A DNA stretch of 64,000 nucleotides. Source: Chthonomonadaceae bacterium. Lineage in GTDB: Bacteria > Armatimonadota > Chthonomonadetes > Chthonomonadales > Chthonomonadaceae. The notes below the pieces were generated by a model. The model did no database searches. It was given only the letters and a program-made list of their open reading frames with translations, and was not told the origin of the DNA. The position numbers and the translations under genes were made by a program. The DNA lies in NCBI GenBank assembly GCA_027459665.1, contig DAIDHN010000017.1, positions 1 through 64,000 of the forward strand, in the 5' to 3' direction. Positions within the stretch are counted from its first letter, which is position 1. The number at the start of each line of letters is the position of its first letter. Positions 51,068 through 56,839 of the stretch are shown in pieces.

Positions 51068-52432
51068 TTAGGCAGCTTTTTTCAACGCCTTCAGCGAAGA
51101 GGCGAGCATATTGTGCGCGCTCTCCAGCAGCATGCCAGACTGGCTTTGCTGCGGATAGTGCGCGCAGCCAAAGCTGTACCAGAGCGGGCACTGCCCCTTG
51201 TTCCAGCCCTGCTGCTGCAGCCATTCGCTCAACCTTGCTTCCAGCCTGGTGCGCACTGTATGCACATGTGTACCGGTGCCAGGCAGAATGAGGGCAAAAC
51301 TGTCTGCTGCATAACGGGTAACTATGTCGTAGCGGCGCACCCCTGTGCGCAGCATATTTGCAGTGCCCCGCACCGCCTCATCCGCACGCAAAGTACCGCC
51401 CAGCCTGGTAAACTCCTGCAGGCCGCCCAAATGCACAAACAGCATGGCAACTTCTTCATTCATGCGTGAGGCGCGCCGCAGCTCCTCTTCGAGGCGCATT
51501 TCAAAATAGCTGCGGTTGTACAAACGAGTTAAATCGTCTACAATACCGGCAGGGTCTGGAAACAGCTTGTCTTCCACCTGCTGCCGTACGCTGGCCGCCA
51601 TCTCCCAGCCTTCTCGCGCCTCTTCGATAGTGAGAATTTTTTTCAGTTTTTTGGTCGCATTGCGCAGAAGATGCGACACATAGTTGCCTGAAATTCCCAG
51701 CATGCGGGCTATTTCGGTCTGGTTCAGGTCGTGAAAGTAAAACTCCATCAGCACCTGCTGCTCCAGACTCTTCAGCTTGCCTATAGCGCTTTCCAGCACA
51801 ACCCTGTCTTCGAGAGGCATTTCAAAGCGTATCGAAGCCTCTTTGGGCAGACTGCGGTCTATGTCTACCGAATTGCTGTCGTCGTCGGTATCCGTTCCGC
51901 CATCCAGCGAAGTGACCTTAAAAACCTCCCGGTTCATCATCAGTTCGCTCACAGCCTCTTCTGTCATACCCATGGTCTGCGCGATTTCCTCGCAGGTAGG
52001 AGTGCGGTGCAGCTGCTGAGAAAGCGTTTCGGTTGCCCGAGTCATGCGCTGATTCAGCTCCTGCAGCCAGGCAGGCTCCTTGATGATCTTTCCTTTATCA
52101 CGCAGGTAGTGTTTTATCTGGCCTATAATAAAATGCGTGGCGTAGGTAGAAAACTTTACATTGCGAGCAGGGTCATACATCTCAATGGCCGATATCAGCC
52201 CTATGTATCCTTCCTGCGCCAGGTCTTCTACTGGTTCAAATCCACCTGAGAAACGCCGGGCAACCGATTCCACCAGATTGGTGTACTGCTGCACCAGCAT
52301 GCCGCGGATTTGAATGTCCCCGGTTTCTTTATAGACCATCAGCAGGCGAAGAACCTCGGCTTCGGAGCGGCGTGCAGGCATGCGCGTCTCTTTGCCCCTG
52401 CTTCCACCTGGATTCTTGTCTTCTGTTGGCAT
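51068..52432 (-). CDS. Sigma-70 family factor fused to a degenerate GGDEF domain
   Basis: A 454-aa fusion. Residues 45-120 are sigma region 2 (LAQEGYIGLISAIEMYDPAR, FSTYATHFI). Residues 120-185 are region 3. Residues 205-268 are region 4 (LEQQVLMEFYF, then NQTEIARMLGISGNYVSHLL). This is the SigB/F/G-like order without region 1.1. Residues 297-454 form a GGDEF fold starting DDLTRLYNRSYFEMRLEEEL. The signature is AADSF (375-379) and the metal Asp strand reads FVHLGG, so it cannot be a working cyclase. The c-di-GMP I-site R-x-x-D is kept (Arg366-Asp369), exactly five residues before the signature. No anti-sigma gene is adjacent. ATG 52432 follows TAGGAA. Confidence 0.9.
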   Translation of the reverse strand: MPTEDKNPGGSRGKETRMPARRSEAEVLRLLMVYKETGDIQIRGMLVQQYTNLVESVARRFSGGFEPVEDLAQEGYIGLISAIEMYDPARNVKFSTYATHFIIGQIKHYLRDKGKIIKEPAWLQELNQRMTRATETLSQQLHRTPTCEEIAQTMGMTEEAVSELMMNREVFKVTSLDGGTDTDDDSNSVDIDRSLPKEASIRFEMPLEDRVVLESAIGKLKSLEQQVLMEFYFHDLNQTEIARMLGISGNYVSHLLRNATKKLKKILTIEEAREGWEMAASVRQQVEDKLFPDPAGIVDDLTRLYNRSYFEMRLEEELRRASRMNEEVAMLFVHLGGLQEFTRLGGTLRADEAVRGTANMLRTGVRRYDIVTRYAADSFALILPGTGTHVHTVRTRLEARLSEWLQQQGWNKGQCPLWYSFGCAHYPQQSQSGMLLESAHNMLASSLKALKKAA

Positions 52433-52596: not shown

Positions 52597-54288
52597 TTAT
52601 TCGAGAAACTGAAACCGCTGGGTCAGTGCATCTTCCTGTCCGGCCTGGCTCTGCAGCATCTGCTGCGCAAAAGCCGCGTAACGCACTGCAGCAGCATGAT
52701 TTGGCGAACGCTGCAGCACTTTTTTCAGCTGAAACAGCGCATCGCCATAACTGCCTGCCTCATAAGCCTCCATTGCCAGGGCATACAGTTGGCTAACCTG
52801 CAGCGCAGCCAGCTTTTCTGCCCTTGCCTGGGTAGGTGCAGCATGCTGCGCATGTTCCAGCATAGCCAGTGCGCCGCTCCAATCCTGCATTTGCTCCAGC
52901 CTTGCGGCTTCGGCATCTGCTTCTTCCGCCTGCCTGAGTCGGTTTTGTTTCAGCTGCACGCGGGCTTGCAGGCAGGCATCCTGCGCCTGCAGCGCCTGCA
53001 GCAGAAGCTGCTCCTGCTCACGCAGGTCTGCAGCGCTTTCTGCAAGCGCCAGGCATTTTTGCGCCCATGCAGTACGCGCCTCCTGCAGGGCAGCGGCCAG
53101 CTGCGGTGATTCAGGTTCTGCAGCAAAGGCTTCCTGCAACAGATTCAATGCAGCCTGCGGGCTGCCTGCCTCCAGCATGATGCGGGCAGTGCTGAGGGCG
53201 CTTTGCACATATTGTTCGTAAATTTGCATACACTGCATGGCATTTTCTACATCGGCAGGGTGCTGCTGCAGATGCCTGCGCAGCAGCAGCAATGCACCAC
53301 CCCTGTCGCTCTGGGCAAGCAATTCCTGCACTCTGACTTCTACCTGCTCATTCTGCAAGGCCGGCGTCTGCTGCCTCCCTGCCTGCAGCTTGAGCATGCT
53401 CACCAGCCCACCTCTGCGTGAAACAGCAAGATAGCCTCCGCCGGGCGAAAGAGCGATGCCTGTAACAGCCTCTTCGCATTGCAGGTGCGTTTCGTACTGG
53501 CCCGTTTCATCTAGCAGCACAAGGTTCTGCTGCACATCATGTTCTTCACTGCACAACACTGCAGCTGCCCTGTCGGCGTTTGCAGTAACCGCCAGCAAAT
53601 GCGCCGTACCACCCGGAAACGCGCTCCAGATGCGTTTGCCCTGCGAATCTATCAGGCCAATTTCGCCGCCGCGGGTTGCATATACTGTTGCTTCAGCCTC
53701 TTCTGTACAGGCCAAAGCACATACCGGCGCCTCAAGCCCAAAGCGCCACACCTCTCTGCCATGCACATCGCGCAGGGCAACCCGCCCATCTTCGCTGCCT
53801 TCAGCAGCAAACAGCCCGTTGCCGCTCACAGCCACGCACAGCGGCACATAATCTAGGTCTATCGCCCAGAGCAGGTTTCCCTGTATGTCTCCCATTGCCA
53901 GCCCAAAGGCAGAGCCTGCCACATTTGAATAGGCTGCCACAAACTGCATGCCGTTTCTGCTGAGAGAGGCATCTTGTGTGAGAAATCTTTTTTCGGGCAG
54001 AAAACGCGCTTTTTCCCCATTTCTAAACAGGTAAAACGAGTCGGAGGTTCTTCCCAAACAGCGCCCTGTAAGCGGCGCAACGTCAAGCTTCAGCAGGGTT
54101 TCTACCGAAATGCTTCCCTGTTTCACGGGGCTGCCCTGTTCGGGCAGAAGAAACAGGTCATGCGTGCGAGGTTCGAGAGGACGGGGCAGGGCGAGCAGCA
54201 GCTCTCCCCCGTCTTGCAATGAAAAAGAAGAGACTGGGTAGCCCCCCCTCAAACGCTGTTCCCAAAGCAAGGCAGTACTAAATGACAT
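52597..54288 (-). CDS. WD/PQQ-like beta-propeller - TPR protein
   Basis: A 563-aa cytosolic-looking protein with no signal peptide. Residues 1-320 form a beta-propeller of WD40/PQQ-like blades (GLFAAEGSEDGRVALRDVHG; GIALSPGGGYLAVSRRGG). Residues 330-560 are helical with TPR-like units (NLLQEAFAAEPESPQLAAAL; AMEAYEAGSYGDALFQLKKV). Together with the Ycf46 ATPase and NHL protein it forms one operon, starting 11 nt after the NHL stop. A scaffold role is inferred from the two repeat types. Confidence 0.75.
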   Translation of the reverse strand: MSFSTALLWEQRLRGGYPVSSFSLQDGGELLLALPRPLEPRTHDLFLLPEQGSPVKQGSISVETLLKLDVAPLTGRCLGRTSDSFYLFRNGEKARFLPEKRFLTQDASLSRNGMQFVAAYSNVAGSAFGLAMGDIQGNLLWAIDLDYVPLCVAVSGNGLFAAEGSEDGRVALRDVHGREVWRFGLEAPVCALACTEEAEATVYATRGGEIGLIDSQGKRIWSAFPGGTAHLLAVTANADRAAAVLCSEEHDVQQNLVLLDETGQYETHLQCEEAVTGIALSPGGGYLAVSRRGGLVSMLKLQAGRQQTPALQNEQVEVRVQELLAQSDRGGALLLLRRHLQQHPADVENAMQCMQIYEQYVQSALSTARIMLEAGSPQAALNLLQEAFAAEPESPQLAAALQEARTAWAQKCLALAESAADLREQEQLLLQALQAQDACLQARVQLKQNRLRQAEEADAEAARLEQMQDWSGALAMLEHAQHAAPTQARAEKLAALQVSQLYALAMEAYEAGSYGDALFQLKKVLQRSPNHAAAVRYAAFAQQMLQSQAGQEDALTQRFQFLE

Positions 54289-54299
54289 AGAAAGCGGCG

Positions 54300-55232
54300 C
54301 TACTCCCAGGCGAAGCGCAGAATGCGATGATTGAGCGTATCACTGAGATAGATTTCGCCGTTTGGCCCCAGTGCTACTCCACAGGGCTGCTTCAGAGGCC
54401 CCAGTTTGCGCATGGGCTGCTCTACAGTCTCTATAGAAACAGCATCGGGTGAAAGCACATGCAGGCGGCTGGCCCCGCTTTCAGCAATGTAGAGTCTTCC
54501 TTCCTTGTCTACCGCAGTTTGCCGGGGCTGCGAGAGGTTTCTAAATTCGCTTACGGCACGCACTTTCTGCCCTACAGGGCTGTAGCAGGTAACATCCCGC
54601 GTTTTTTCATCTGTAACATACACGTTTTTTCTTTCATCGCAGCAAAGCGCTATCGGCCGCAAAACGCCCTGGCTGCGGTCTAGGCGCAGCAGCATCACAC
54701 CGCTTCTGGCATCTACGCAAAGCACTCGTGAGTTGCCGGTATCTGCAATCCAGCATCGGCCGTCGCCATCAAAGCATACTCCCGATGGCCCCAGAAAGCC
54801 AGTGAAGGGCCGATCAAATTCGCCGGTGATTCTGAAGGCGGCAATTCGCTGATTGCCCTGGTCTGCCACCAGAAAAAAGCGCCCGTCAGGGTGCGGAGCC
54901 ACTGCCACCGGCCCCATCAGCTGCCCCATGCCCTGCCCCGGCCCGCCATACAGCAGCACATCTCCGTTGAGAGCTATGCGCTGCACCCTGTGGTTGCCCG
55001 TATCTGCCACATACAAGTTGCCGTACCCATCTACGGCAATACCGGCAGGGTTCATAAACTGGCCTGCTTCCCGCCCCGGCTCGCCAATTACCTCCTGTAT
55101 TTTGAGGCGTACCGACTTGCGGGCAGAAGGCTCCTGTTCTGCAAGAGAATCCGGCATGCCCTCCGACTGCTGTGCAGCAGGAGCTTTCGGCGGCGCATCG
55201 CCCAGTTCCAGAAAATCAAAACGGTCGCTCAT
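54300..55232 (-). CDS. NHL-repeat beta-propeller protein
   Basis: A 310-aa protein. After a charged 50-residue tail it has NHL repeats, each with the motif DxxGNLYVADTGNHRVQR or similar (WIADTGNSRVLCV, YLSDTLNHRILRF). It forms a six-bladed propeller for protein or RNA contacts. There is no signal peptide, so it is intracellular, unlike many NHL proteins. Its ATG overlaps the Ycf46 stop (ATGA), placing it second in the operon. Confidence 0.88.
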   Translation of the reverse strand: MSDRFDFLELGDAPPKAPAAQQSEGMPDSLAEQEPSARKSVRLKIQEVIGEPGREAGQFMNPAGIAVDGYGNLYVADTGNHRVQRIALNGDVLLYGGPGQGMGQLMGPVAVAPHPDGRFFLVADQGNQRIAAFRITGEFDRPFTGFLGPSGVCFDGDGRCWIADTGNSRVLCVDARSGVMLLRLDRSQGVLRPIALCCDERKNVYVTDEKTRDVTCYSPVGQKVRAVSEFRNLSQPRQTAVDKEGRLYIAESGASRLHVLSPDAVSIETVEQPMRKLGPLKQPCGVALGPNGEIYLSDTLNHRILRFAWE

Positions 55233-56839
55233 TGCCCTTCCGGCTTCTCTTCTTCAGCGGCTTCCGAATTCTCTGCAGAAGCGTTCCGGTTTTTGTTCAC
55301 GCCTGCTTTTGCTACCAGCAGGTTCTCCATAATGGCATCCATATCTTCTGATTTGGCCTCAGAAGCCGGGCGCGCTCTCAAATTTGCCCACTCTCTCAGT
55401 TCTTCTATTCTCTCTCTCATGGTAACAGAAAGAGGCACGGTATGTGCTGCAGCATCTATCAGCGAATCTGTGGTCATTTCGCTGGTTTCATCAAACGCAT
55501 CGTAAAGCGCCTCTACTACCACAGCCTCTATTTCCGCCCCAGAAAACCCCGGGGTGGCCTCTGCCAGTCTGCTGATGTCAAAGTCTTCCGGCCGGCGGTT
55601 CCGTTTTCTCAAGTGAATGCGAAATATCTGCATGCGTTCTTCCAGCGCGGGCAGGTCTATAAAAAATATTTCATCAAACCTGCCCTTGCGCAGCAGTTCG
55701 GGGGGCAGAGACGTGACATCATTTGAGGTAGCCACCACAAAAGCAGACGCCTGCTTGTCTTGCATCCAGGTAAGAAAAGTGCCAAACACGCGGCTGGTGG
55801 TGCCCCCATCTGATATGCCTGAGCTTTGTGTGCCAGAGAACCCTTTTTCCAGTTCGTCCAGCCAGAGTATGCAGGGTGCAACCGATTCTGCCACCCGAAT
55901 TGCCTTGCGCATGTTTTCTTCCGACTGGCCCACAATGCCGCCAAAAATACGGCCTACATCCAGGCGCAGCAGGGGCAGACGCCAAAGTGCGCCTATTGCT
56001 TTGGCAGAAAGGCTTTTGCCGCAGCCCTGTACACCCAGAAGCAGTACTCCGCGCGGGGTAGGCAGACCAAATTCGCGGGCTTTTTCTGTAAAAGCAACCG
56101 TCCGCTTTTCCATCCAGTCTTTCAGCAAATTCAACCCGCCCACATCGTTTGGGCTTTCGTTGAACGGGTAGTACTCAAGTATGCCAGACTTGCGAATGAT
56201 CTGTTCTTTTTCGCTGAGAATTACATCTACGTCAAACCGGTGCTTTTCAATCAGCGATTTTGCAAATACGTTTTCGGCTTCCATGGCAGTCAGGCCCTGG
56301 GCCGCTTTCAACACCTGGTCGCGCTCCAGATCGCTCATTTTGCAGTCTATTTGCGGGTTGTCTCGCACAGCCTGTATTACTTTTTCCAAAATCATATCCA
56401 GGTCTTTGTAATCTGGCAGGCCGTAATCTACCACCGCAATTTCTTTTTCCAGTTCTGCGGGCAGCTTGAGCATCGGGGAGAGAATGACGAGGGTTTTGTA
56501 AGAGGTCTTGAGTGCAACAGTGAGATCGCGCAGCCTTCTGGTTACCGTAACATCTGAAATGAAGGCATGGTAGTCTTTCAATACAAACAGCGCCTGTTCC
56601 CGCGAGTCGCTCACCGCATCCAGCGCAGCCAGAGGGTCGCGGGTGGCCGCATCTCTATTGTTAGGGTTCGATACCATCCCCTGCGTCACCGTCCAGAGAA
56701 AAAGTTTTTTTCCTCTCTCCTGTGCAATTCGGCGCAGCGCCTCTTCTACGCGCTGTTCTTCCCAGGACACAATGTAGATAATGGGATAGCGGGCGCGTAT
56801 AAGCGTTTCAAGTTCTTTGTCTACCACAGAAGTTGCCAA
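55229..56839 (-). CDS. Ycf46-type AAA ATPase
   Basis: A 536-aa protein. The N-terminal domain (residues 1-230) contains the Ycf46-typical YPIIYIVSWEEQRVEEAL and a P-loop-like remnant (ALFVLKDYHAFI). The C-terminal AAA domain has Walker A LLGVQGCGKS, Walker B CILWLDELEK, sensor-1 ATSN and the arginine-finger region LLRKGRFDEIFF. It ends in an acidic tail. Cyanobacterial and plastid homologues are implicated in photosynthesis or CO2 regulation; bacterial roles are unclear. The start is TTG 56839 with GGGGGAT upstream. Confidence 0.9.
   Translation of the reverse strand: MATSVVDKELETLIRARYPIIYIVSWEEQRVEEALRRIAQERGKKLFLWTVTQGMVSNPNNRDAATRDPLAALDAVSDSREQALFVLKDYHAFISDVTVTRRLRDLTVALKTSYKTLVILSPMLKLPAELEKEIAVVDYGLPDYKDLDMILEKVIQAVRDNPQIDCKMSDLERDQVLKAAQGLTAMEAENVFAKSLIEKHRFDVDVILSEKEQIIRKSGILEYYPFNESPNDVGGLNLLKDWMEKRTVAFTEKAREFGLPTPRGVLLLGVQGCGKSLSAKAIGALWRLPLLRLDVGRIFGGIVGQSEENMRKAIRVAESVAPCILWLDELEKGFSGTQSSGISDGGTTSRVFGTFLTWMQDKQASAFVVATSNDVTSLPPELLRKGRFDEIFFIDLPALEERMQIFRIHLRKRNRRPEDFDISRLAEATPGFSGAEIEAVVVEALYDAFDETSEMTTDSLIDAAAHTVPLSVTMRERIEELREWANLRARPASEAKSEDMDAIMENLLVAKAGVNKNRNASAENSEAAEEEKPEGQ

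Follow-up and report, generated by a model that had tools for sequence, protein, structure and literature searches.

A conserved sigma factor-GGDEF fusion of the Armatimonadota with a putative c-di-GMP receptor of its own

Known c-di-GMP receptors and group 3 sigma factors

Among complexes of a sigma factor with its anti-sigma factor, the RsiG-WhiG pair of Actinobacteria is reported to be the only one known as a target of c-di-GMP (PMC8325347). The c-di-GMP-controlled WhiG of Rubrobacter counts type IV pilus genes among its targets, and their promoter is TAAA/GCCGATAA (PMC8325347). The sigma-GGDEF fusion of the Armatimonadota considered here resembles the (RsiG)-(c-di-GMP)2-WhiG complex in joining c-di-GMP to a FliA/WhiG-type sigma factor, with control by c-di-GMP predicted in the case of the fusion, and the promoter motif of the Rubrobacter pilus genes also precedes sigma-GGDEF and pil genes in part of this phylum. 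The receptors differ considerably, in that RsiG is a separate coiled-coil anti-sigma factor unrelated to GGDEF domains, whereas the fusion is predicted to sense c-di-GMP through a GGDEF domain in the same chain as the sigma factor. Because the receptor is carried in this way, and in another phylum, the fusion would represent an independent solution.

Each half of the fusion has better-known relatives. PopA and PelD, like the fusion, combine a dead active site with a retained RxxD I-site (PMC10333796, PMC12564702); they control proteolysis and exopolysaccharide export, and neither is fused to a transcription factor, unlike the protein discussed here. The diguanylate cyclases PleD, WspR, and DgcB share with the fusion their fold (TM about 0.8) and the I-site residues, but the fusion has lost the catalytic residues and its output is a sigma factor. 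Nearest to the sigma half are the SigB/SigF/SigG factors that are governed by RsbW/RsbV partner switching (TIGR02980), and the stand-alone paralogues found in the phylum do have RsbW-type neighbours. The fusion departs from this group in the lack of an adjoining anti-sigma gene, in its C-terminal GGDEF domain, and in its helix-turn-helix (HTH) sequence (SCNYVSH against SQMHVSR). Both the receptor type and the sigma type are known. In the open-access literature searched, no earlier description of the two joined in one protein was found, in keeping with an earlier note on this DNA, whose author knew of no characterised fusion of this kind.

A sigma-GGDEF fusion conserved across the Armatimonadota

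The sequence analysed (the window) is a stretch of 64,000 nucleotides from a member of the Chthonomonadaceae. As the earlier note had claimed, one of its genes encodes sigma regions 2 to 4 followed by a GGDEF domain (Table 1); the coordinates proved right and Pfam agrees, with all four domain matches exceeding their curated cut-offs, and the strand, which had gone unstated, is the minus strand. The sigma half comprises regions 2, 3, and 4 without region 1.1, as in group 3 sigma-70 factors of the SigB/SigF/FliA type. Its nearest model is that of SigB/SigF/SigG (TIGR02980), at 188 bits under the curated cut-off of 234, followed by that of FliA/WhiG (TIGR02479), at 127.6 bits under the cut-off of 189.6. 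Within the HTH of region 4, residues S248 and N250 to H254 are invariant in an alignment of the window protein and 79 homologues (alignment A2).

Table 1. Features of the fusion gene in the window and related features at other loci (L, locus).
Feature	Position	Strand	Basis or remark
Sigma-GGDEF fusion gene	51068..52432	(-)	ORF and translation, Pfam; 454 aa plus stop
Sigma-70 region 2	52088..52297	(-)	Residues 46-115; Pfam PF04542, 67 bits
Sigma-70 region 3	51872..52060	(-)	Residues 125-187; Pfam PF04539, 50 bits
Sigma-70 region 4	51638..51787	(-)	Residues 216-265; Pfam PF04545
Long helix, sigma region 4 to GGDEF	51563..51688	(-)	Residues 249-290; AlphaFold2 model m3de510b4a239
Degenerate GGDEF domain	51095..51541	(-)	Residues 298-446; Pfam PF00990, 79 bits, E = 4e-22
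R313 and E317, same helix face as R320	51482..51496	(-)	Invariant, 108/108 homologues
R320, secondary I-site arginine (PleD R313 position)	51473..51475	(-)	108/108; aligned with PleD
Primary I-site, R366-x-x-D369	51326..51337	(-)	108/108; aligned with PleD RxxD
Degenerate signature AADSF	51296..51310	(-)	Residues 375-379; GG[D/E]EF intact in 0/108 homologues
R396, third primary I-site residue (PleD R390 position)	51245..51247	(-)	108/108; aligned with PleD
C-terminal Ala-Ala, candidate ClpXP-type degron	51071..51076	(-)	92/108 homologues; 10/632 background proteins
Type IV pilus cluster (secretin, pilB, pilT, pilC) immediately before sigma-GGDEF, as at 50 other loci	L061:1099-9314		
Perfect TAAA-N15/16-GCCGATAA before sigma-GGDEF	L065:7909; L066:7940; L067:7907; L069:1844		
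Perfect TAAA-N15/16-GCCGATAA directly before pilC-sigma	L091:6608		Other family
Stand-alone SigF-like paralogue and RsbW-type gene	L173:6269-7466; L174:5489-6712; L178:6925-8737		L178 also RsbV-type

The search for this architecture elsewhere that had been proposed returned sigma regions 2 to 4 plus GGDEF in all 80 members of A2. Since the architecture recurs in each of these and RxxD in all 108 aligned homologues, the fusion is real and chance is excluded; a sequencing or assembly artefact was likewise ruled out, as the fusion recurs as an open frame in genomes of many groups. A match to the fusion occurs in 164 of 251 sampled genomes of the phylum (E <= 1e-45), a count that may include a few stand-alone paralogues, and 45 of 61 related genomes match at E <= 1e-30, some of them through the stand-alone paralogue. 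The best 80 of 317 matches in the genome collection bear Armatimonadota names or are bacterial bins, and include Chthonomonadaceae, Fimbriimonadales, Capsulimonadaceae, and Zipacnadia among other groups. To judge from these sequences, the sigma-GGDEF architecture is conserved across the Armatimonadota and is no local oddity.

A dead active site with a complete I-site

The GGDEF domain shows the signature AADSF, preceded, as had been observed, by the motif R366-R-Y-D369 and the five residues IVTRY. It lacks the hallmarks of an active diguanylate cyclase, with H334 and G336 standing in place of the metal aspartates and the signature degenerate in 108/108 homologues. The strand that carries the metal positions, which the earlier note had taken to be gone, is still there (modelled at residues 328-336); it is the aspartates themselves that were replaced. 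Furthermore, nearly every homologue has lost the metal aspartates, the conserved lysine and asparagine of the substrate site, and the GG[D/E]EF loop, and acidic residues at both metal positions are kept in only 4 of 58 non-redundant fusions. By comparison, a set of 37 further GGDEF domains taken from the same genomes, one of which is a fusion (L157), keeps the catalytic positions.

Exactly six columns of the GGDEF domain are invariant among the 108 aligned fusions, namely R313, E317, R320, R366, D369, and R396, and the same six are invariant in the 58 non-redundant sequences (below 70% identity). The inhibitory site (I-site) of PleD consists of R359, D362, and R390 at the primary site and of R313, contributed by a neighbouring domain, at the secondary site. 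In a profile search against PDB sequences (PleD 1w25), four of the six invariant columns correspond to these residues, so that the alignment with GGDEF structures suggested earlier places RxxD, the later arginine, and the helix arginine on PleD I-site positions. The last two, R396 and R320, are further parts of the same site that had been overlooked. The probability that four columns named beforehand would all land among six of 157 by chance is about 6e-7.

Part of this conservation is inherited, since active cyclases of the same genomes frequently carry the I-site residues as well (33-34 of 37 for the R, D, and R; 27 of 37 for the R320 position). What distinguishes the fusions is the retention of the I-site while the rest of the domain decayed. 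At the level of sequence, the presence of R366, D369, and R396 in 108/108 homologues together with the dead active site is what is found in degenerate receptors of the PopA/PelD type.

An AlphaFold2 model of the GGDEF domain alone (pLDDT 92, pTM 0.86) has an intact GGDEF fold; the PDB entries that match it best are GGDEF domains too, several of them with c-di-GMP bound (TM of 0.80 to PleD 2wb4, 0.80 to DgcB 6ttr, and 0.79 to GcbC 5euh). The geometry of the I-site was assessed from homology and topology. The full-length model (pTM 0.44) leaves the mutual orientation of the sigma and GGDEF halves unfixed, and in it a single helix runs continuously from sigma region 4 into the linker.

Loss of the fusion together with other GGDEF genes

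The genome of the window has 12 GGDEF, 2 EAL, and 3 PilZ matches, indicating an active c-di-GMP economy. Genomes with the fusion (n=37) encode 2-35 other GGDEF domains (median 9), against 0-9 (median 2) in those without it (n=23). In statistics uncorrected for the tree, the difference is significant by Mann-Whitney test (p = 8e-9; 8e-7 at genus level), and, within the same order and among complete genomes only, fusion presence is associated with the other-GGDEF count (Fisher p = 4e-5). Presence was taken from match lengths in the search of relatives, with G012 left out (contig edge) and G053 counted as lacking the fusion. Some fusion-lacking genomes keep 5-9 GGDEF genes (G025, G028, G030, G031, G045, G050, and G058). 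PilT is present in 61/61 genomes, which rules out type IV pili alone as the explanation for presence or absence of the fusion and indicates that loss of the sigma factor follows loss of the messenger and not of the pilus. This co-loss, the invariance of the whole I-site, and the phylum-wide loss of the active site strongly support the proposal made earlier that the GGDEF domain, though dead, has been kept as a c-di-GMP receptor.

The genome G053, which has only two GGDEF domains, encodes a sigma factor related to the fusion that has a short basic tail where the GGDEF domain would be (L180:7422-8489), possibly a natural loss of the sensor.

Pilus genes, promoters, and the C-terminus

A pilC homologue is a conserved neighbour of the fusion in 51 of 80 loci, and in 50 of these it lies directly upstream on the same strand, with a median gap of 94 bp. 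Fuller loci also feature a secretin gene, pilB (MshEN plus T2SSE), and pilT upstream of pilC. The MshEN domain of one such PilB (L061:3745-5478) is another possible c-di-GMP receptor, in which the first arginine of the motifs is replaced (by P and S). In the Chthonomonadaceae, the family of the window, the pilus linkage is absent and the fusion gene has been relocated. Upstream of it in the window, on the same strand, lie genes for an AAA ATPase, an NHL protein, and a propeller/TPR protein (52597-56839), homologues of which are also found near the fusion in L042, L044, and L046. Several families additionally encode a stand-alone, SigF-like paralogue without GGDEF, located downstream of RsbW-type genes; a pilBTC set lies near this paralogue in G038, and two pilT genes in G049.

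The perfect motif TAAA-N15/16-GCCGATAA occurs about 100 bp before sigma-GGDEF in four congeneric species. If one mismatch is allowed, such sites stand before 8 of 267 pilus or sigma genes and before 3 of 1291 others (p = 7e-5, or 0.005 with the congeners taken as one); pilB in L079 and L201 is among the genes so preceded. No FliA/WhiG-type site is present at the window copy, and the motif is absent in the family of the window; in 14 genomes with the fusion and 6 without it, the type IV pilus loci contain no perfect site and few one-mismatch sites. A promoter of the SigB/SigF type, GTTTA-N12..15-GGGTAT, was also considered and showed no enrichment over shuffles. The motif suggests FliA-type specificity and autoregulation of the fusion sigma in part of the phylum.

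The fusion also ends in Ala-Ala, as ssrA-like C-termini do. This ending is shared by 92 of the 108 fusions (48 of the 58 non-redundant ones), with Val-Ala in 7 more of the 108, while the residues just before it are unalignable. Among other proteins of the same loci the frequency is 1.6%, in a background that excludes one fusion (L066). The tmRNA tag of the window's genome is ANTQQYALAA, and the Ala-Ala end of the fusion is a candidate ssrA-like ClpXP degron. Because this end is nearly invariant, proteolysis is a serious alternative or addition to promoter gating.

Proposed mechanism and alternatives

The reading that we consider probable is of a SigF/FliA-like sigma factor that brings its own c-di-GMP receptor, in the form of a one-time cyclase domain whose catalytic function is gone but whose I-site is complete. 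Intercalated c-di-GMP dimers would bridge two GGDEF domains, held by R366, D369, and R396 on the first and by R320 on the other, and the ligand would dimerise or re-orient these domains. This change would be transmitted along the unbroken helix that leads out of sigma region 4 and would alter the engagement of RNA polymerase or promoter, and the ligand may also alter the access of ClpXP to the C-terminal Ala-Ala. The direct gating of promoter binding without an anti-sigma factor that the earlier note put forward would be one form of such control; effects on RNA polymerase binding or on protein stability would be others. The protein would likely serve to transcribe the type IV pilus genes and its own gene from FliA/WhiG-type promoters under the control of c-di-GMP, and a link to type IV pilus expression probably exists. 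As to the sign of control, activation by c-di-GMP has a slight edge over inhibition, since lineages without c-di-GMP dropped the sigma factor instead of keeping it constitutively on.

An alternative is that c-di-GMP sets the amount of the sigma factor and not its binding to promoters, with a rearrangement of the GGDEF domain hiding or presenting the Ala-Ala degron to ClpXP. This has the strong excess of Ala-Ala ends over background on its side, even with the residues before them unalignable, as well as the ALAA end of the cell's own tmRNA tag and the precedent of PopA, a degenerate I-site GGDEF protein that works with ClpXP (PMC10333796, PMC12564702). The logic would be similar to that of PopA-CtrA, but within one chain. 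On the other hand, about 15% of the fusions lack Ala-Ala and such ends could serve another role, and as a full replacement for promoter gating this reading seems rather unlikely. It is compatible with the sigma factor carrying its own receptor, as both can hold together, and gating of promoter binding and control of stability are the two plausible outputs of the receptor.

The remaining alternatives are less probable. SigF relatives are usually under anti-sigma control, and a separate anti-sigma factor might dock on the ligand-bearing GGDEF domain in a c-di-GMP-dependent manner, as in RsiG-WhiG. The RsbW-type (once RsbV-type) genes that precede the stand-alone paralogues of the phylum are consistent with such an arrangement, but no anti-sigma gene adjoins the fusion in its conserved neighbourhoods, and the genome of the window contains no RsbW-sized stand-alone anti-sigma factor of the HATPase_c_2 type, its two matches sitting in frames of 597 and 780 aa; this makes a separate partner improbable. 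Dead GGDEF domains can serve as interaction modules, and the long helix predicted before the domain would suit a mere dimerisation or scaffold function with a vestigial ligand site. A vestigial site should drift as the active site did, yet the I-site residues are the fixed ones, and the fusion is lost together with other GGDEF genes, which leaves this explanation with a slimmer chance still. That the domain continues to bind GTP or to make c-di-GMP is scarcely credible, for the fold is retained but the lost catalytic residues rule out an active cyclase or GTP sensor.

Implications for c-di-GMP signalling in the Armatimonadota

Beyond the proposed sigma factor with its own receptor, a more extended proposal is tentative, falling somewhat short of even chances: the Armatimonadota would possess a one-protein route from messenger to promoter, in which an I-site GGDEF sigma factor has its gene within the type IV pilus operon, transcribes that operon from FliA/WhiG-type promoters, regulates its own gene, and is removed by ClpXP through Ala-Ala upon a change of ligand state, the whole having arisen independently of RsiG-WhiG, which came to act on the same pilus targets in Actinobacteria. 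The I-site, the promoter motif, and the Ala-Ala end give clear predictions, each of which is separately testable. If true, a sigma factor carrying its own receptor would connect c-di-GMP with transcription in the most direct way, and would also provide a compact part for synthetic biology. Such a link would be conserved across a phylum with little genetics, and would show that c-di-GMP, FliA-type sigma factors, and type IV pili have converged.
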